Positions 4,916-12,731 of a stretch of DNA of 35,448 bases are shown here, piece by piece (position 1 is the first letter of the stretch; each line of letters opens with the position of its first letter). The position numbers and the translations under genes are program-made. The notes beneath the pieces are model-generated. The model saw only the letters and a list, made by a program, of their open reading frames with translations. It did no database searches and was not told the DNA's origin. Source of the DNA: Betaproteobacteria bacterium (GTDB taxonomy: Bacteria > Pseudomonadota > Gammaproteobacteria > Burkholderiales > SG8-39); contig JAOUFA010000003.1 of the NCBI GenBank assembly GCA_029858545.1, forward strand, positions 1 through 35,448, written 5' to 3'.

Positions 4916-4934
4916 CCGGCGAACGCGAACAACG

Positions 4935-5087
4935 GATAGGGAAATCAATGCGCCTCGAAAGTCTGAACAGCTTGCCTGCGCACGACAATCCCGCGCTGGA
5001 ACGCGCCCTGAGCGGTCTGCAATGCGCATTCTGTCAATCTCGCTCCATGACACCCGCCCGAAGAGGGCGATTGGAGCAGAGTCTAGT
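4935..5087 (+). repeat. Repeat R1 (copy 1 of 3, 153 bases, direct orientation)
   Basis: This block begins GATAGGGAAATCAAT and ends GGAGCAGAGTCTAGT. It recurs at 8466-8618 (R2) and 12514-12666 (R3), with exactly the same length and orientation. Over its last 123 bases R1 differs from R2 at one position. Its first 41 bases, and at least one base before them, are identical to R3. Possible stems are TGCGCA 4977-4982 with 5023-5028, GCGC 4993-4996 with 5003-5006, and GCTCCA 5042-5047 with TGGAGC 5072-5077; the last encloses CGCCC/GGGCG. R1 sits between the molybdoenzyme gene and the binding-protein gene. Bases 4879-5293 hold no convincing gene. Confidence 0.95.
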
Positions 5088-5208
5088 GGTAAGGAAGCGC
5101 GGCGTCTGAGGATGTCGTCCGGCGGCGACCATGGAATGCGAATCGCCACGAATACGGAGTGTAACGATGCGCAGTCCATCAGCAGCGCTGTCAAAGATTG
5201 TCATCGCT

Positions 5209-5228
5209 CCTGAGTACCCGCGCTCAGG
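5209..5228 (+). other. Stem-loop upstream of the PstS-like binding protein gene
   Basis: CCTGAG (5209-5214) and CTCAGG (5223-5228) are a perfect six-base inverted repeat around an eight-base loop, 65 bases before the next start codon. It could be an operator or leader hairpin. No clear promoter was found next to it. Confidence 0.35.
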
Positions 5229-5293
5229 TTCGTCTTGCGTGCTATTTATCCCAGCTCAATTTTTTCCCCCGCTGGATCGAACGGAGAACGCAA

Positions 5294-6076
5294 ATGAGCA
5301 TGGCAAGGCGAGCAATGATCGTGGTGGGAGCGGCCTGGGCGCTGCTCCCCGCGGCGCAGGCGCAAACCCTCGAAGTGTCGGGCGCGACCACGGTGCAGAA
5401 ACGCATTCTCGAACCCGGTGCGGAAGGCTTCAAGGCCGCGACCGGGATCGAGCTGAAGATCTACGGGCCCGGCACGGGCAAGGGCATGCTCGCGCTGCTC
5501 GAGGGCAAGGTTCCGGTGGCGGCGGCCGGCGAGGCGCTCGTGGACGCGATCGGCTCGGCGAAGAAAGCCGCCGCCGACGCCGGCAAGACGGTGAGCATTC
5601 CGTCCAACCTCATGTATCACACGGTCGCCTCAGACGACATCGTGGTGGTGGTGCACACGGGCAACCGTGTGAAGTCGCTCACCAGGGCGCAGGCCAAGGC
5701 GATCATGACCGGCAAGATCAAGAACTGGAAGGAAGTGCACGGCGCCGACCTGCCGATCAAGGTGGTCGCCGCGGCGCCCGGCCAGGCGGTGCGCAATGCG
5801 GTGCAGAAGGGACTGATGGATGGCGAGGAGTTCGGTCCCGGCACGGCCGACATCCGTACCGCGCTCGAGCAGTTGCGCGTGGTCGGCTCCAACCCGGGTG
5901 CGATCGGCGCGATGAGCGAGCCGGTGGTCAAGGAAAGCAACGAGAAGGTGAAAGCCGTCGCGGGCGTGCGCGTCGGCCGGCCGCTCGGCTTCGTGACCGT
6001 CGGCGCGCCCAACGCGAGCGCGCAGAAGCTCATCGATTTCTTCCATTCGCCGGCCGGCAAGAAGCTGATCAAGTAG
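5294..6076 (+). CDS. Periplasmic PstS-like (phosphate-family) substrate-binding protein
   Basis: The product is 260 residues. It starts with a signal peptide (MSMARRAMIVVGAAWALLPAAQA, likely cut before QTLEV). The mature start LEVSGATTVQ, then YGPGTGKGMLALLEG and the later GQAVRNAVQKGLM and PGAIGAMSE segments, resemble the PBP_like_2/PstS group that binds oxyanions such as phosphate. GGAG seven bases before ATG 5294 decides the start. No ABC permease or ATPase gene is nearby; a chemoreceptor gene follows after 29 bases, so the protein may deliver ligand to the receptor rather than to a transporter (inference). Ligand identity is uncertain; tungstate, molybdate or another oxyanion is possible given two molybdoenzyme genes in the window. 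Confidence 0.85.
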   Translation: MSMARRAMIVVGAAWALLPAAQAQTLEVSGATTVQKRILEPGAEGFKAATGIELKIYGPGTGKGMLALLEGKVPVAAAGEALVDAIGSAKKAAADAGKTVSIPSNLMYHTVASDDIVVVVHTGNRVKSLTRAQAKAIMTGKIKNWKEVHGADLPIKVVAAAPGQAVRNAVQKGLMDGEEFGPGTADIRTALEQLRVVGSNPGAIGAMSEPVVKESNEKVKAVAGVRVGRPLGFVTVGAPNASAQKLIDFFHSPAGKKLIK

Positions 6077-6105
6077 CGCCACGCCTCGGCCAACGGAATC
6101 GCGTG

Positions 6106-7767
6106 ATGCTCACAAACCTGCGCGTAGGTGTGCGCCTCGGGCTGGCGTTCGGAACGCTGCTCGCGATGATGCTCGCCATCGCACTCATCGCCTGGTTCGC
6201 CCTCGGTCAATCCACGCTGCGCATTGACAATCTCGCCAACCGCGACCTGGGACGGCTCAGCGCGGCCGCCAGCATGGAAGTGGCACAGCTCACCCAGTCG
6301 GTCGCGATCCGCGACTTCGTGAGCGACGCCGACGTCGCGGCGCAAAAGCGCGCGCGCGAGCGCCTGACGCGCGGCCAGCAGACCTACGCAGACTCGGCGC
6401 AGTGGCTTGGCGAGCTCGCCAAGCAGACTTCCAACGCCGAGCTCACTGCGCTCGCCGACAAGCTGCGAGCCACGCAGGACAAGGTGGCGCAGCAGATCGG
6501 TATCGCGATCGACATGGTCGACAATGCCCAGTACGAGGAAGCGCGGCAGCACGTATTCCGGACCGTCGGCCCGCTGCAGACGCAGATCACCGAGGAGCTG
6601 CGCGCTCTCGCGGCGGCGAGCCACGCGCAGGCCGAGCGCACCGCGAACAACGCGCGCGACGCCTCGCGCGGCGCGGCCGCCTACATGATCAGCGCCATCC
6701 TTGCCGCCCTGTTGCTCGGCGCCGCGGCAACCTGGTGGCTGACGCACAGTATCACCCGACCGCTCAACGCGGCGGTCGCTGCCACCGAGCGGATCGCCGC
6801 GGGCGACCTGACCGGCGATATCCCGCCCGGCTCGGGGGACGAGACCGGGCGCGTGCTGGCGGCGCTCGCGCACATGAAGGCGAATCTCCACGAAGTCGCG
6901 GCGCGCATCCGCTCGGGCGCCGAATCGATCTCCCGCGCCTCGAACGAGATTGCGAGCGGCAATGACGACCTGTCGCACCGCACGGAGGAGCAGACTTCGT
7001 CGCTCGAGGAAACCGTTGCCAACGTCGAGGAGCTGACCGCGACGGTGCGGCAGAACAGCGACAACTCCAAGCGCGCGAGCGAGCTGGCGCTGCGCGCCGC
7101 CGGCGCCGCGGAGCAAGGCGGCAAGATCGTCGGCCAGGTGGTCGAGGCAATGAACGGCATGCACGCCACCTCGGGGCGCATGGCGGATATCGTCGGCGTC
7201 ATCGACGGCATCGCCTTCCAGACCAACCTGCTCGCGCTCAATGCCGCGGTCGAGGCCGCGCGCGCGGGCGAGCAGGGCAAGGGCTTCGCGGTGGTCGCCA
7301 CCGAGGTGCGTGCGCTCGCGCAACGCAGCGCCGAGGCGGCCAAGGAAATCCGCGGCCTGATCGGCGGCAGCATCGACCGGGTGCGCGCGGGCGCGCAGCT
7401 CGCCGACCAGGCGGGCACGGCGATCGGCGAGATCGTCCTCACGGCGACCGAGGTCTCGAACGTGGTGGCCGAAATCTCGAGCGCGAGCGCCGAGCAGCGC
7501 ACGGGCATCGAGCAAATCGGCCAGGCGATCACCCACATGGATGACATCACGCAGCGCAACGCCGCGATGGTCGAGGAGACGGCCGCCGCGACCGGCGCGC
7601 TGCGCGATCAGGCCGCGGGACTGCTTGAAACGGTCGGGTCGTTCAGGCTCGACCAGGCGGCCCAGGCGCCCGCAGCGCCCGAGCGTGTCCCCGCACCCGC
7701 CCCGCAGAGGCAGCCCGCCCGACTCGCGCCGCGCGCGGGCGACCTGCTGCCCCTCGCGGCGCGCTGA
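6106..7767 (+). CDS. Methyl-accepting chemotaxis protein
   Basis: This 553-residue receptor has one transmembrane segment near residues 10-32, a periplasmic four-helix-bundle-like domain to about 190, a second membrane segment (MISAILAALLLGAAATWWL), a HAMP domain starting SITRPLNAAVAATERIAAGDLTG, and a long cytoplasmic coiled coil. The signalling hairpin tip is canonical: DGIAFQTNLLALNAAVEAARAGEQGKGFAVVA. The C-terminus is Pro/Ala-rich and has no CheR-docking pentapeptide. ATG 6106 is used because the membrane helix follows at once; the longer track ORF is an upstream extension. It follows the binding-protein gene by 29 bases, suggesting co-transcription and a shared sensing role. Its 3' end is convergent with the COG4091 remnant. 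Confidence 0.95.
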   Translation: MLTNLRVGVRLGLAFGTLLAMMLAIALIAWFALGQSTLRIDNLANRDLGRLSAAASMEVAQLTQSVAIRDFVSDADVAAQKRARERLTRGQQTYADSAQWLGELAKQTSNAELTALADKLRATQDKVAQQIGIAIDMVDNAQYEEARQHVFRTVGPLQTQITEELRALAAASHAQAERTANNARDASRGAAAYMISAILAALLLGAAATWWLTHSITRPLNAAVAATERIAAGDLTGDIPPGSGDETGRVLAALAHMKANLHEVAARIRSGAESISRASNEIASGNDDLSHRTEEQTSSLEETVANVEELTATVRQNSDNSKRASELALRAAGAAEQGGKIVGQVVEAMNGMHATSGRMADIVGVIDGIAFQTNLLALNAAVEAARAGEQGKGFAVVATEVRALAQRSAEAAKEIRGLIGGSIDRVRAGAQLADQAGTAIGEIVLTATEVSNVVAEISSASAEQRTGIEQIGQAITHMDDITQRNAAMVEETAAATGALRDQAAGLLETVGSFRLDQAAQAPAAPERVPAPAPQRQPARLAPRAGDLLPLAAR

Positions 7768-7780
7768 GCAGGTTCAGCCC

Positions 7781-8465
7781 GTCGCGCCGCGCGCGCGCTT
7801 CCATTTCGCGCCGCAGGGCGACCGCACTGCTTGTGCCGTCGAGCGCGACATCGCCCCAGCCGATCGGCTCGCCTGCCGCCACCGCGCACAGCAGCTTACA
7901 GCCCTGCGCGAGACCGAGCGGCAGGCAGCCTCGCGCGAGCGAGTCGGCCGCCGGCATCAGGCGGCCCACGACCGTGTAGCCGCCCTCGCCATCGAGCAGT
8001 TCACCCGCATTGAGATCGCGCTTGGCGGTCGCGACCGCATCGGCGCCGAATCGGGTCGCGCAGCCGGTCGGCTCGCCGCGCAGGCCCACCGACGCCACCG
8101 ATATGCCGACCTCGAGCCCGATCAGGTGCCAGCGCTTGTAGAGGCACGCGTAGCGCCCGCTCGGGTCGGTCTTCACGCCGTACTCGGCGAAGCAGCGCCG
8201 GATGTACTCGGTCTCGCCCTCGAACACCACCCACACACCGAAGCGGATATCGTGGGGAATGGCGCGTCCGTCGCGCTCCAGCGAGGAGATCACCTCGACC
8301 TGCCCCTTGTGGTGCAACTGCCCGCCCTCCTCGCGCGGCCGCATGACGCACGGAATGTCGTCCACCGTCGCCGGCCGATAGGCGAGTCCCCACGGCGCGG
8401 GCGTGAGGCCGGTGGCATTGCACACCGCGGCGCTCTCGATCGCCGGCTTCGAGCCGTCGAGGAGA
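7781..8465 (-). pseudogene. C-terminal remnant of COG4091-type homoserine-dehydrogenase-like/SAF-domain oxidoreductase
   Basis: The reverse strand encodes about 228 residues starting DGSKPAIESAAVCNATG and running through MRPREEGGQ, GRYACLYKRWHLIGLEV and a SAF-like stretch (AKRDLNAGELLDGEGG) to ALRREMEAR. This matches the second half of COG4091 proteins of about 430 residues. The Rossmann half (an N-terminal GxGxxG domain) is absent. The homology stops exactly where the R2 terminal repeat begins at 8466, and nothing beyond R2 encodes the missing part. The frame also reads past the natural C-terminus into the opposite-strand MCP 3' end (to 7643), so the original stop appears lost or shifted. 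It is most likely a broken gene. Expression of a free SAF domain is possible but there is no clear start. Confidence 0.8.
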
Positions 8466-8618
8466 GATAGGCAAATCAATCCTACCCTGAAGTTTGAACA
8501 GCTTGCCTGCGCACGACAATCCCGCGCTGGAACGCGCCCTGAGCGGTCTGCGATGCGCATTCTGTCAATCTCGCTCCATGACACCCGCCCGAAGAGGGCG
8601 ATTGGAGCAGAGTCTAGT
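8466..8618 (+). repeat. Repeat R2 (copy 2 of 3, 153 bases, direct orientation)
   Basis: This is the same repeat as R1 and R3. Bases 8496-8618 match R1 with one mismatch in 123, while the first 30 bases diverge (GATAGGCAAATCAATCC and on). The ATG present near the left end of R1 and R3 is ATC here, which argues against the repeat being a small gene. Confidence 0.95.
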
Positions 8619-8684
8619 TTGTTGAGCCCGGGCAGGCAGTGGCGGCGAAGGACCTGCTCGCCGAGCCGGATTGATTTTCCTATC
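8466..8684 (+). mobile_element. MITE-like element bounded by 17-base terminal inverted repeats, containing R2
   Basis: The left end GATAGGCAAATCAATCC (8466-8482) is matched at 16 of 17 positions by the reverse complement of 8668-8684. The 219-base interval has no transposase-sized ORF, so it would be a non-autonomous element. Its left end abuts the truncated COG4091 gene. No clear target-site duplication is visible, and R1 and R3 lack an obvious right-hand inverted copy. Bases 8685-8792 hold only a short GGTCC/GGACC hairpin and the ridA ribosome site. Confidence 0.55.
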
Positions 8685-8792
8685 CCTGGATGGCATGATC
8701 GCCATGACCCACGCATGAACGTCCGACCTGTCCGATCCGCCGCGGTCCTGCGGACCATGCAGCGCTGGGCCTGAAACCGGAGAACCCCAGCC

Positions 8793-9254
8793 ATGACCAA
8801 CCGCAGCAAGGCATTTCACGTGTCGCCGACAAATCCGGCAGTCGGCGAGATCCAGACCGAACCCGAGCGTTATCAGGACATGCCCTATGCGCCGGCCATC
8901 CGCGTCGAGGGCGGCGATCTGCTCTTCATCTCCGGGGCGACGCCTTCGCCGCTATACCACAAGCATCCGCACGTGATCTCCGAGCATGAGCATCCCAACG
9001 GCATCAAGGAACAGGTACGCCGGGCAATGAATACGGTACAGAACATCCTGAAGCATGAGGGTCTGGCGTGGACCGACGTCGTCAAGATGACAAAGTACCT
9101 GACCGACATGCGCGACATGGACGGCATGAACGAGGTGCTGCCCGAATATCTCAAGAACTGGCGGCCCGCCAGCACCACGATCTGCGTCAATCAACTTTCG
9201 ACACCCGGTGCCCGGGTCGAGATCGACGTCATCGCCGCCTTTCCGAAGTCCTGA
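8793..9254 (+). CDS. Rid-family (YjgF/YER057c/UK114) protein
   Basis: This 153-residue protein carries the Rid fold signature: a strand-rich start with LLFISGATPSPL, the helix VRRAMNTVQNILKHEGLAWTDVVKMTKYLTDM, and the terminal PGARVEIDVIAAFPKS. Rid proteins hydrolyse reactive enamine/imine intermediates or act on related small molecules. Aligned by eye, the arginine essential for RidA imine deaminase activity (PARSC context) is replaced here (PASTT), pointing to a non-canonical Rid subfamily with another role. GGAGA upstream of ATG 8793 supports the start. It is convergent with the TRAP permease gene and shares its lower GC, so its substrate may relate to what the TRAP system imports (inference). 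Confidence 0.92.
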   Translation: MTNRSKAFHVSPTNPAVGEIQTEPERYQDMPYAPAIRVEGGDLLFISGATPSPLYHKHPHVISEHEHPNGIKEQVRRAMNTVQNILKHEGLAWTDVVKMTKYLTDMRDMDGMNEVLPEYLKNWRPASTTICVNQLSTPGARVEIDVIAAFPKS

Positions 9255-9330
9255 CCCGGCAGGATCCCCGCGTTCGTTGCCGCGCCGTACCGCCGGTCGT
9301 TCCGGGACCGCGCGATAGTGCGCGCAGACG

Positions 9331-11244
9331 CTACCGGACGAGTACCGTCGAGAGAATCGGAAGCGCAGCGACCAGGATGGTTACGGCCATCATCGTGAGC
9401 ACAAAGGGTATCGTGCCCTCGAATATCTCGCGCAGATTCGTGAAGTTCTTGGGCAACGTGCTGTTGACGACGTAGACCGAGATTCCGAATGGCGGGGTCA
9501 GTAGCCCGATCTCGACGCTGATCGTGGTGAGTATCCCGAACCATACGAGATTTCCGCCCAAGGCGGTCACGATCGGCAGCATGACCGGCAGCACCATCAG
9601 CATGATCGACACCGAGTCGAGAATCGTGCCCAGCAGCACGACGATCAGCAGGTAGATCGCCAGGAAGGCCGGCAGGCCCAGCCCCGCTTGCGACACCAAG
9701 TTGGCCGCATAAGTCGGGATGCCCGAGAGCGCCAGCATTCGGCTGTAGAGCGCCGCAGCGATGATCAGGAACAGTATGGCCCCCGTGACGAGTCCCGCCT
9801 CGACCAGGACCTTGGTGAACTCGGAGCGAGGCAGTTTGCGCCGCGCAATCGCGATGACCAGCGCGCCGGCGGCTCCCACGGCACCCGATTCAGTCGGCGT
9901 CATCACCCCTCCGTAGATTCCCCCGATTACGACAACGATCAGCACTAGCATCGGCAGCAGGGCAATCAGCGACGCACGCACCGGCATGTTCGGGATTTCC
10001 GCGATCGCCTTGGGATTGCCGACAAAGCGCGGCCATGTCTTCGCAACGAAGGAAATCATGCCCATGAAGGCGGCTGCGAGGAGCAATCCTGGGATGATCG
10101 CGGCAATGAACAGCTTGCCGATCGAGACCTCAGAGACGAGACCGTAGATGATCAGCAGCAGGCTCGGCGGTATCAGCATGCCCAGCACGGAACTGCCGGC
10201 GACGGTTCCGACCGAAAACCGCCTCGAGTAGCCGTGATCGACCATTTCCGGCACTGCAACGCGGGCGAATACCGTCGCCGAGGCGATCGACGACCCGGTG
10301 ATCGAGGCGAACAATGCGTTGGCCAGGACCGTCGCCATTCCCAAGCCGCCGCGAACGCGCCGCAGCAGCGACGCGGCGACGGCGAACGCGTCGCGCCCGA
10401 CTTCCGCCTTCTCGACCAGCAGCCCCATCAGCACGTAGAGCGGAATCACGGCGAAATCATAGGAGCTGATCGCATTCGAGGCCGCAAGCCCGACCGCGTT
10501 GACCGCGATCGTCTCACTGCCGCGGACCAGCCAGATGCCGATGAACGACAGCACGAAGAGTGCGGTGCCGATCGGCATGCCTGCCAGGAGCAGAACAAGC
10601 ATTCCCAGGACGGAAATCGCGCCTATCTCGGTCGGCCGAAGGTGGCCGAGGAAATTCACGCCGATATAGGCAAGAATCAGGATGGCGAGCGCCGCGAGCG
10701 CGATCCAGCCCAGGCGGTTGCTTGATTCCGGCCGGCGATCGGCTGCGCGTCGTGCGGCGATGCCTTTCACGTGCGCGGCTGCCATGGCAACGAAGCTGAG
10801 TGCGGCAAACGCCGCGCCGATTACGACCGCAAGCTTGAACGGCCAGACAATGACCGCATACGCGCCCTCGACCCCGGCAAACTCAGCAGTACGGATTGCG
10901 CCCAGAAGATCGGGGACCGTCCACAGCAGGACGACCCCGAATACGGTGATACCGGCGAGGGCGAACAGCAGGCCGTAGAGGTGGCCGGCGAACGCAGCCC
11001 GCTGCTCGATGACGCGCAGGATCAGGTCGGCATGAATCATGCGGCCGGCGCGTATGACCTGCGGCAACTGCAGAAAAACGAGGCACGGCACGCTCAACGC
11101 GACGAGTTCCGGCGTCCTCTGGATCGGCGTGTTGAACAGCGCACGGCCCGCGATGTCGCCGCAGATCAGCAGCATGATTGCGAAGATCCACAGCGAACCG
11201 AGCGCAGACAGCGCGGCGGTCAGCGCGGAGAAGGCGCGCGTCAC
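9331..11244 (-). CDS. Fused TRAP transporter permease DctQM
   Basis: This 637-residue membrane protein joins the two TRAP permease subunits. Residues 1 to about 165 form a four-helix DctQ-like part (GDIAGRALFNTPIQRTPELVALS), then a charged linker (IAARRAADRRPESSN), then a DctM-like part of about a dozen helices with GMPIGTALFVLSFIGIWL, VPLYVLMG-like and PPSLLLIIYGLVSEVSIGKLF motifs. TRAP systems import organic acids using ion gradients together with a DctP protein, here encoded just upstream. The start is GTG with a weak ribosome site, and a strong hairpin separates it from dctP, so less permease than binding protein is expected. The gene has lower GC than its flanks. Confidence 0.95.
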   Translation of the reverse strand: MTRAFSALTAALSALGSLWIFAIMLLICGDIAGRALFNTPIQRTPELVALSVPCLVFLQLPQVIRAGRMIHADLILRVIEQRAAFAGHLYGLLFALAGITVFGVVLLWTVPDLLGAIRTAEFAGVEGAYAVIVWPFKLAVVIGAAFAALSFVAMAAAHVKGIAARRAADRRPESSNRLGWIALAALAILILAYIGVNFLGHLRPTEIGAISVLGMLVLLLAGMPIGTALFVLSFIGIWLVRGSETIAVNAVGLAASNAISSYDFAVIPLYVLMGLLVEKAEVGRDAFAVAASLLRRVRGGLGMATVLANALFASITGSSIASATVFARVAVPEMVDHGYSRRFSVGTVAGSSVLGMLIPPSLLLIIYGLVSEVSIGKLFIAAIIPGLLLAAAFMGMISFVAKTWPRFVGNPKAIAEIPNMPVRASLIALLPMLVLIVVVIGGIYGGVMTPTESGAVGAAGALVIAIARRKLPRSEFTKVLVEAGLVTGAILFLIIAAALYSRMLALSGIPTYAANLVSQAGLGLPAFLAIYLLIVVLLGTILDSVSIMLMVLPVMLPIVTALGGNLVWFGILTTISVEIGLLTPPFGISVYVVNSTLPKNFTNLREIFEGTIPFVLTMMAVTILVAALPILSTVLVR

Positions 11245-11262
11245 GATGCCGGCAGGTCAGAG

Positions 11263-11291
11263 AGCCAGCCGCGCGAGGGGCGCGACTGGCT
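11263..11291 (-). promoter_or_regulatory. Intercistronic hairpin between dctP and dctQM
   Basis: AGCCAG (11263-11268) pairs with CTGGCT (11286-11291), and inside it CGCGC pairs with GCGCG around a GAGGG loop, with one mismatch between the two parts. There is no T-tract. It likely stabilises or partly terminates the dctP transcript, a common arrangement between binding-protein and permease genes. Confidence 0.5.
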
Positions 11292-11300
11292 GCAAGAAGA

Positions 11301-12386
11301 TCAGAGTCCCTCGTCCCAGTTACGCAGCGGCTTGGCGCCGCGCGCGCGCATTTCCGTCATGAACGACTTCATGATGTCGGCAGCGGGTATTCCCTTCGCC
11401 GAGTTGGACGCGACGAATTCCTTGCTGACGTTGCCCATGGCGTCTATCCAGCGCTTGCGGTCTGCTTCCGAGAGTGAGCTGATCTTGGATCCGGCAGCCA
11501 CCATGGCATCGATCGACCCCTTGACCCGCGCTTTGACTTCCTTGGCGTGGACGGTCGAATACTCGCGGCCCAGTTTGCCAAGGACCGCCTTGACGTCAGG
11601 GGGAAGTTTCTTCCAGGTGTTGCCGTTGGCGGCAAGGCCGCCGATCGTCGTCACGCCCAGGTCGACGAGCGTGATGTACGGGGCGACTTCAAAGAGCTTG
11701 AAGGAGTAGGCGCCCGTGGAGATGATAAGCGTCCCGTCGGCCACCCCGGTCTGGAGCATCTGGTAATAGGCAGGCAGACCGGCTGCCACCGGGGTCGCAC
11801 CGATCGCCTTTAGCCACGTCGCATGGGCTGTTCCGGCCACGATCTTCTTGCCCTTCAAATCGTCCAGCGACTTGATCGGGAATTTGGTAAACAGATGGTA
11901 GGTATCGGATACCGTCGCGCCAAGAAATACGAGATTGTGCCTGGTCCACTCGGCCTGCATTGCCGGTACCGTATCATTCAGCTTGTTCATCACGTCGATG
12001 GCGATTTCCTCGTCGCTGGTGACGAACGGCGTGGCGAACATGATGTTCTGCAGCGGCAGCTTTGCCGGCTCCCACAGCGCACCGACCCAGCCCATGTCGG
12101 ACACGCCTTGTGCCAGGGGTTCGAGCGTGTTGTTGAAGTTGTACAGCACGCCGCCGAAGGCCTCGTTCCATTCAATTCGATAGTTGCTCTTCGCCGCCTC
12201 GAGCCGCTTGTTGCTCTCGGCAATGACGTGAGTCTTGAGGGCGCCCACCCAGGGTATGCTGGTCGGATGGCTCGAGGACATCGTCAGGCGGATGGTTTCC
12301 ACCCCGGCCGCTGCGGTAGCAAGCCCGAGCATGGCAGCGCCCGCCATTGCAGCGGTAAATCGGAGGTGTTTCCGTGAAGCGATCAT
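11301..12386 (-). CDS. dctP: TRAP transporter solute-binding protein DctP
   Basis: The 361-residue product begins with a signal peptide (MIASRKHLRFTAAMAGAAMLGLATAAAG, cut near AAG-VET) and continues as a DctP family protein: TIRLTMSSSHP, GALWEPAKLPLQNIMF, LDDLKGKKIVAG and QTGVADGTLIISTGAY. It captures a substrate, usually a carboxylate, in the periplasm for DctQM. The ligand cannot be named; glycolate/glyoxylate-type acids would suit the neighbouring hyi-glc genes (inference). ATG 12386 is chosen because the longer track ORF runs through repeat R3, and an AAAGGGG ribosome site precedes this ATG. A good promoter lies about 40 bases upstream. Its low GC matches ridA. Confidence 0.93.
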   Translation of the reverse strand: MIASRKHLRFTAAMAGAAMLGLATAAAGVETIRLTMSSSHPTSIPWVGALKTHVIAESNKRLEAAKSNYRIEWNEAFGGVLYNFNNTLEPLAQGVSDMGWVGALWEPAKLPLQNIMFATPFVTSDEEIAIDVMNKLNDTVPAMQAEWTRHNLVFLGATVSDTYHLFTKFPIKSLDDLKGKKIVAGTAHATWLKAIGATPVAAGLPAYYQMLQTGVADGTLIISTGAYSFKLFEVAPYITLVDLGVTTIGGLAANGNTWKKLPPDVKAVLGKLGREYSTVHAKEVKARVKGSIDAMVAAGSKISSLSEADRKRWIDAMGNVSKEFVASNSAKGIPAADIMKSFMTEMRARGAKPLRNWDEGL

Positions 12387-12422
12387 AGGGTACCCCTTTG
12401 CGTATGTGATACGGACCACTGC

Positions 12423-12451
12423 ATTATGTGCGGCCAGCCGCAAAATCACAA
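12423..12451 (-). promoter_or_regulatory. Candidate sigma70 promoter of dctP-dctQM
   Basis: On the minus strand TTGTGA (12451-12446) and CATAAT (12428-12423) are separated by 17 bases, giving a start near 12416 and a leader of about 30 bases. It lies between dctP and repeat R3, so the operon carries its own promoter next to the repeat. Confidence 0.55.
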
Positions 12452-12513
12452 CGGCGCTGGCGGCTACCGAGTACGCAGCTATCGGGCGCGACGCGATTGC
12501 CCGGGATGTCACG

Positions 12514-12666
12514 GATAGGGAAATCAATGCGCCTCGAAAGTCTGAACAGCTTGCGTGCGCGCGACAATCCCGTGCTGGAACGCGCCCTGAGCGGTCTGCG
12601 ATGCGCATTATGTCAATCTCGTTCCGCTACGCCCCCCCGAGTGCCGCCATCGGAGCAGAGTCTAGT
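12514..12666 (+). repeat. Repeat R3 (copy 3 of 3, 153 bases, direct orientation)
   Basis: This is the most diverged copy. The left 41 bases equal R1; the rest carries scattered substitutions and a rewritten hairpin interior, with no insertion or deletion. Stem ends remain pairable on the plus strand: TGCGCG with TGCGCA and GTGC with GCGC through G-T wobble, and GTTCCG with CGGAGC through one wobble and one compensatory change. The inner CGCCC/GGGCG stem of R1 and R2 is lost. It lies upstream of dctP and downstream of the deacetylase gene. Bases 12667-12731 show nothing else. Confidence 0.93.
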
Positions 12667-12731
12667 AGCAAGTCGGATCGCGCTTGTCTGCGTACCCGGC
12701 GCAACACCCGGCAGCAAATCAACGCCCCGAA

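Follow-up and report, generated by a model that had tools for sequence, protein, structure and literature searches.

Antibiotic-resistance genes, among others, are mobilised by IS91 and ISCR elements, whose rolling-circle transfer is one-ended, and to our knowledge what stops this transfer in bacteria is poorly defined. The intermediate of IS91-type transfer is single-stranded DNA (PMC5714925). Within the family, IS801 uses the targets GAAC, GGAC, CAAG and CGAC, and its one-ended transposition yields right-end fragments of 229, 360 and 679 nt (PMC3189936), with one-ended events ending at GAAC or CAAG (PMC6354349). In Helraiser the terminator is a hairpin located 11 nt upstream of the 3' end, the deletion of which raises read-through (PMC4778049).

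The window described here, which is the whole 35,448-nt stretch of DNA that was analysed, contains three + strand copies of a repeat, termed R1, R2 and R3 (Table 1), with R2 and R3 aligning to R1 over 153 nt at 94% and 88% identity. The original prediction concerned positions 4977-5077, which form an interior part of the longer unit R1. From an alignment of 88 non-redundant copies, both full and partial, the unit is about 160 nt long and runs from GGATAGGCAAATCAATCCGGCC... to ...GAGTTTAGTGGTAAA. These repeats are very probably non-autonomous elements of the rolling-circle type that stem from the ori end of an insertion sequence of the IS91 family, comprising the ori and a putative terminator hairpin and moved in trans as single-stranded DNA. 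The object is of an ordinary kind, a mobile element, but of an unusual form, being gene-less, only about 160 nt in length, multi-copy and furnished with a fixed end and a hairpin. Its assignment as a mobile element rests on well-defined ends, a target motif, the lack of a target duplication, the link to an IS91 transposase and the cutting of a gene by R2.

The ends of R1 were set by the flank statistics of 64 copies together with 21 two-ended copies. In the 64 aligned copies the left end adjoins a CAAG/CGAG/GAAC-type tetramer, with C at -4 in 26/64, A or G at -3 in 50/64, A at -2 in 57/64 and G at -1 in 40/64; information in these flanks is below 0.1 bit from -4 outward, with no signal beyond the tetramer. 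An exact GAAC precedes two divergent copies that lie near transposase fragments in genome G127 (L126, L130). The right boundary is sharp, with random flanks beyond it, and is common to 21 copies at unrelated sites. It reads TTTAGTGGTAAA or CTAGTGGTAAG up to the junction, the second being the form found in the host genome, and the last tetramers of the 21 copies are TAAA (13), TAAG (5) and CAAG, CAAC and CAAA (1 each). The right tetramer in other genomes is mostly TAAA, which resembles CAAG less closely. These 21 copies show no target-site duplication, their abutting direct repeats coming to 1.76 nt against 1.75 nt for shuffled pairs, nor do they have terminal inverted repeats, the ends GGATAGG and GTGGTAAR showing no complementarity.

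Table 1. Positions within the window of the repeat copies, the parts of R1 and the features around R2.
Feature	Position	Strand	Details
R1, full copy of mini-element	4934..5093	+	GGATAGG ... GTCTAGTGGTAAG; left flank tetramer CAAC; profile match 1.6e-39
Subterminal hairpin of R1	5039..5081	+	z = -3.40 on + strand; stem c paired in 90% of cells, 49 copies
Pairs of R1 hairpin	5039-5041/5079-5081; 5042-5047/5072-5077; 5055-5059/5065-5069		CTC/GAG; GCTCCA/TGGAGC; CGCCC/GGGCG; bulged A at 5078
Right (ter-side) tail of R1, 12 nt	5082..5093	+	TCTAGTGGTAAG; ends in CAAG-like tetramer TAAG; right-end alignment
Truncated DRL/SAF oxidoreductase gene, N-terminal half missing	7643..8464	-	DRL_cat 2.1e-29 from profile position 59; SAF 4.2e-07
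R2, left end intact, right end cut at CTAGT	8465..8618	+	profile match 5.7e-39
Inverted fragment of element's left end, just right of R2	8663..8685	-	GGATAGGAAAATCAATCCGGCTC; profile match E = 0.0025
R3, full copy, right end AGCAAG, inner hairpin stem lost	12513..12672	+	profile match 2.6e-37

On the + strand the unit is composed of two modules, a left module A of about 100 nt (GGATAGGCAAATCAATCCGG...) and a right module B of about 60 nt that carries the hairpin. A large number of other copies have the left end but break off on the right side at various points. At five loci (L052, L060, L068, L088 and L098) the left module runs into another shared right module (GGATTACGCATCC...CGCGCCGACCGGGTGATCGAATAG) that replaces the hairpin module; this alternative module, 'C', hints that there are sister families of elements sharing an ori. 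The 60-nt hairpin module is tandemly duplicated at the right end of one copy (L036:279-499), and two left-end fragments abut in inverted orientation on a contig of the host genome (G000:C315, locus L109:17096-17177).

The connection to a transposase comes from loci in which the two lie side by side. At L036, L078 and G000:C11 a conserved segment, D, separates the right end of the unit from the C-terminus of a transposase encoded on the opposite strand, and since the unit lies beyond that C-terminus it is on the downstream, ori side of tnpA. On contig G126:C235 the unit directly adjoins a transposase truncated at residue 202. The best transposase copy (L026, 359 aa of open frame) contains Zn_Tnp_IS91 (2.3e-17) and Y2_Tnp (8.6e-13) domains, and against the NCBIfam model transpos_IS91 the transposase gives 2.8e-35 at 122 bits, slightly below the 125-bit cut-off. 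The unit therefore shares with the IS91 family both an adjoining HUH transposase of this type and an ori side downstream of tnpA at a GAAC/CAAG-like target. At the transposase-side end, relatives read TTAACGAACTTCG and the end of the unit on that strand reads (T/C)TTACCAC, the last tetramer alone being similar. In the host genome only two transposase fragments were found, and no autonomous element that combines both ends with an intact transposase; if the copies there were mobile as units, they would have moved in trans, or earlier.

An insertion can be followed within the window at R2. The oxidoreductase gene on its left begins in the middle of the DRL_cat domain, exactly at the left end of R2. 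About 60 genomes of the host family match the gene up to about window position 8461-8467, where homology stops, and in the ten relatives that were read in detail the gene continues intact where the window has R2, with homology ending at 8461-8463. The left end of R2 is consequently a true insertion boundary. The missing N-terminal half of the gene does not resume to the right of R2, nor was it found elsewhere in the host genome (a MAG that is 88% complete), except for a 38% paralogue, and the other side of R2 is rearranged or lost. No clean empty site emerged from 13 loci and 14 genomes of one genus, in that no relative joins both flanks; the conserved flanks of the 13 loci map instead to different loci in relatives. 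This lack of contiguity may represent true rearrangement or may be due in part to assembly error at repeats.

By analogy with the described systems, module A would be the ori side, positioned immediately after a CAAG/GAAC-like target tetramer. An IS91-type HUH transposase acting in trans would nick the left end after its tetramer, one strand would be peeled off by replication and then cut after the hairpin near the right end, and the freed single strand would be joined to another CAAG-like target. The + strand would then be the transferred strand and the hairpin the putative terminator of transfer. Such units probably go back to one-ended transposition, as in IS801, in which transfer out of an autonomous element stopped close to its ori.

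Certain observations sit less easily with a mobile unit. The many right-truncated copies mean that some are possibly decay products rather than transposed units; the lack of an autonomous element in the host genome and of a clean empty site, the absence of covariation in the hairpin, the loss of the inner stem in R3 and the prevalence of TAAA over CAAG at right ends in other genomes also count against it. It could be that full IS91-type elements were reduced to their ori ends through deletions and recombination, leaving inert remnants that never moved as 160-nt units. The truncated copies are of many lengths, most genomic IS801 fragments have been ascribed to reorganisation rather than to one-ended transposition (PMC3189936), and R2 and the flanks in relatives are found in rearranged neighbourhoods, all of which would suit decay. 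We nevertheless consider it unlikely, given that the 21 copies at unrelated sites have both ends in common, that copies outnumber transposase fragments by roughly 17 to 2 in the host genome, and that the same right end is not expected to result repeatedly from decay.

The repeat had initially drawn attention as a possible plus-strand structured RNA, or a sequence acting as a single strand, on the basis of three candidate stems that appeared to keep pairing through base changes between R1 and R3. The window does contain all three copies as well as the base changes described, and the stems were followed through 49 hairpin-bearing copies from the host and related genomes in a hand-anchored alignment. 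Stem c (GCTCCA/TGGAGC), which forms the outer stem of the hairpin, is widely paired, with 90% of cells over the 49 copies against at most 51% when its partner is slid by 1-3 columns. Stems a and b are private to the host genome: stem a (TGCGCA/TGCGCA) is complete in 9/12 host copies but in 0/29 elsewhere, and stem b (GCGC/GCGC) in 11/12 host copies but in 4/32 elsewhere. Good pairing of these two stems only among the host copies indicates shared ancestry and not conserved structure. Between the foot of the hairpin and the right terminus of the unit there are 12 nt. Its inner CGCCC/GGGCG stem is indeed lost in R3, as had been pointed out, where the folding z-score is -0.84 in comparison with -3.4 in R1 (median -2.06 over the 49 copies), yet R3 keeps both ends.

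Covariation above phylogenetic background was sought across all column pairs of the 49 copies, with a null in which substitutions were reshuffled along the tree, and no helix pair was significant (best E = 0.4, helix pairs alone counted), the test being of low power on a stem that varies little. RNAalifold found no consensus among 52 aligned hairpins, the gapped alignment being unsuitable for it. The further argument that wobble pairs point to one strand is weak, as it amounts to 20 G-T against 11 A-C cells, with the outermost pair excluded and shared ancestry uncorrected. A search of Rfam gave no match at the gathering threshold or at E up to 1 apart from a chance hit to an unrelated miRNA model at E 0.82, and no promoter-like site was found for the repeat. 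A small open reading frame within R1 (53 aa, 4948-5109) has no Pfam match, and R2 has no start codon for it and does not preserve its frame.

That the repeat encodes or regulates a + strand structured RNA, dispersed with an element or independently, is accordingly very improbable. The folding of the R1 hairpin, the negative median z-score and the widespread pairing of stem c would favour such a role, but it is opposed by the results from Rfam, the promoter search and the covariation test, by the absence of stems a and b from relatives, and by the sharp CAAG-like boundaries and transposase link, which are traits of mobile elements. The structured-RNA part of the original prediction is thus not supported, whilst its single-strand part is plausible in another sense, as transfer DNA, in keeping with the IS91-type anatomy and the one hairpin that is widely kept. 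As for palindromes of the REP-like or IS200/IS605 type mobilised by a Y1 (TnpA-REP) transposase, which would likewise be short, dispersed and hairpin-bearing without target duplication, the IS91 zinc-binding and Y2_Tnp domains of the linked transposase, the CAAG/GAAC-like target and the 100-nt ori-side module conserved outside the hairpin leave this with hardly any likelihood.

The host genome (G000), a 3.9-Mb MAG split into 589 contigs with 88% completeness and 6.8% contamination, holds about 17 matches to the repeat. A degenerate hairpin pattern matches the window 3 times against 0.00 expected, and elsewhere it recovered about 17 true copies from betaproteobacterial groundwater and sediment MAGs; apart from L037, which lies on a contig of a Solibacter MAG, its other matches are unrelated sequences. 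When the R1 sequence served as query, only one clear relative was seen in 98 genomes of the host's GTDB family. The consensus of the pattern-found copies, when used as query, gave 3-18 matches in each of eight other MAGs, so that relatives of the repeat occur in at least eight further MAGs, nearly all of them betaproteobacterial. Several of these are the same assemblies, with identical contig coordinates, as the family members G036, G065, G070 and G087, which means that several genera of the host family contain the repeat and that it had earlier escaped notice through divergence. No match to the element was found in the plasmid and viral collections searched.

Contigs often begin or stop within a copy, as is seen with the SCTX contigs (L025, L027, L032, L040) and with C11 and C154 of the host, and the repeat therefore breaks the assemblies of these MAGs. 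Two host copies, G000:C431:124 and C520:5936 (L013 and L014), share a left flank, but their sequences separate within the loop of the hairpin, at points that differ between the two; variation between strains, deletion or chimeric assembly may account for the pair. The mini-element explains the assembly-breaking repeat of these groundwater genomes, which could otherwise be misannotated as RNA or as small ORFs.

Of the 22 pairs of neighbouring copies on a shared contig, 21 have both members in the same orientation, across several genomes (binomial p = 1.1e-5), the co-oriented pairs coming from window 4934-12672, G000:C315 and C154, G065:C198, G070:C78 and C104, and G128:C458. Gene direction does not account for this co-orientation, and replication strand is a weak explanation at best (contig GC skew p = 0.15, AT skew p = 0.045). 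Repeated insertion of an element beside its own ori together with captured DNA, as in ISCR, would give both the co-orientation and the non-contiguous flanks, which we offer as a lead and not as a result; alternatively, a replication-strand preference combined with assembly errors at repeats might give both. More broadly, and quite tentatively, the repeats could be a bacterial counterpart of non-autonomous Helitrons: self-contained mini-elements, consisting solely of an IS91-type ori and a terminator hairpin, that repeatedly reinsert at a regenerated CAAG-like site next to their own ori, take neighbouring DNA with them and so line up captured segments in head-to-tail, co-oriented arrays in environmental betaproteobacteria. 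A natural family of units of about 160 nt, in which the end is fixed and the subterminal hairpin conserved, would also offer a small substrate for testing whether a hairpin stops transfer, as in Helitrons.

In comparison with known systems, the repeats resemble REP/BIME palindromes as short dispersed hairpin sequences in bacterial genomes, but differ from them in transposase family and target and in having a larger conserved unit. Unlike non-autonomous Helitrons such as HelibatN (PMC4778049), they are bacterial and associated with an IS91-type transposase, and their hairpin is a putative terminator by analogy. With IS91 and ISCR they have in common a HUH transposase with the IS91 zinc-binding domain, an ori downstream of tnpA and a CAAG/GAAC-like target beside the ori, although they carry no gene and the linked transposase is only about 30-34% similar to its plasmid-borne relatives. 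The repeats also resemble the IS801 fragments of Pseudomonas syringae (PMC3189936), which likewise contain the ori end of an IS91-family element, are bounded by GAAC/CAAG-like tetramers and lack a target duplication. IS801 fragments can be moved by a transposase in trans, and the same is proposed for the ~160-nt units. In contrast to the IS801 fragments, which have no recognisable palindrome at their ends, these units carry a hairpin 12 nt inside their right terminus; in addition, the short form, with its fixed right end, is the common form and is found in several genera.
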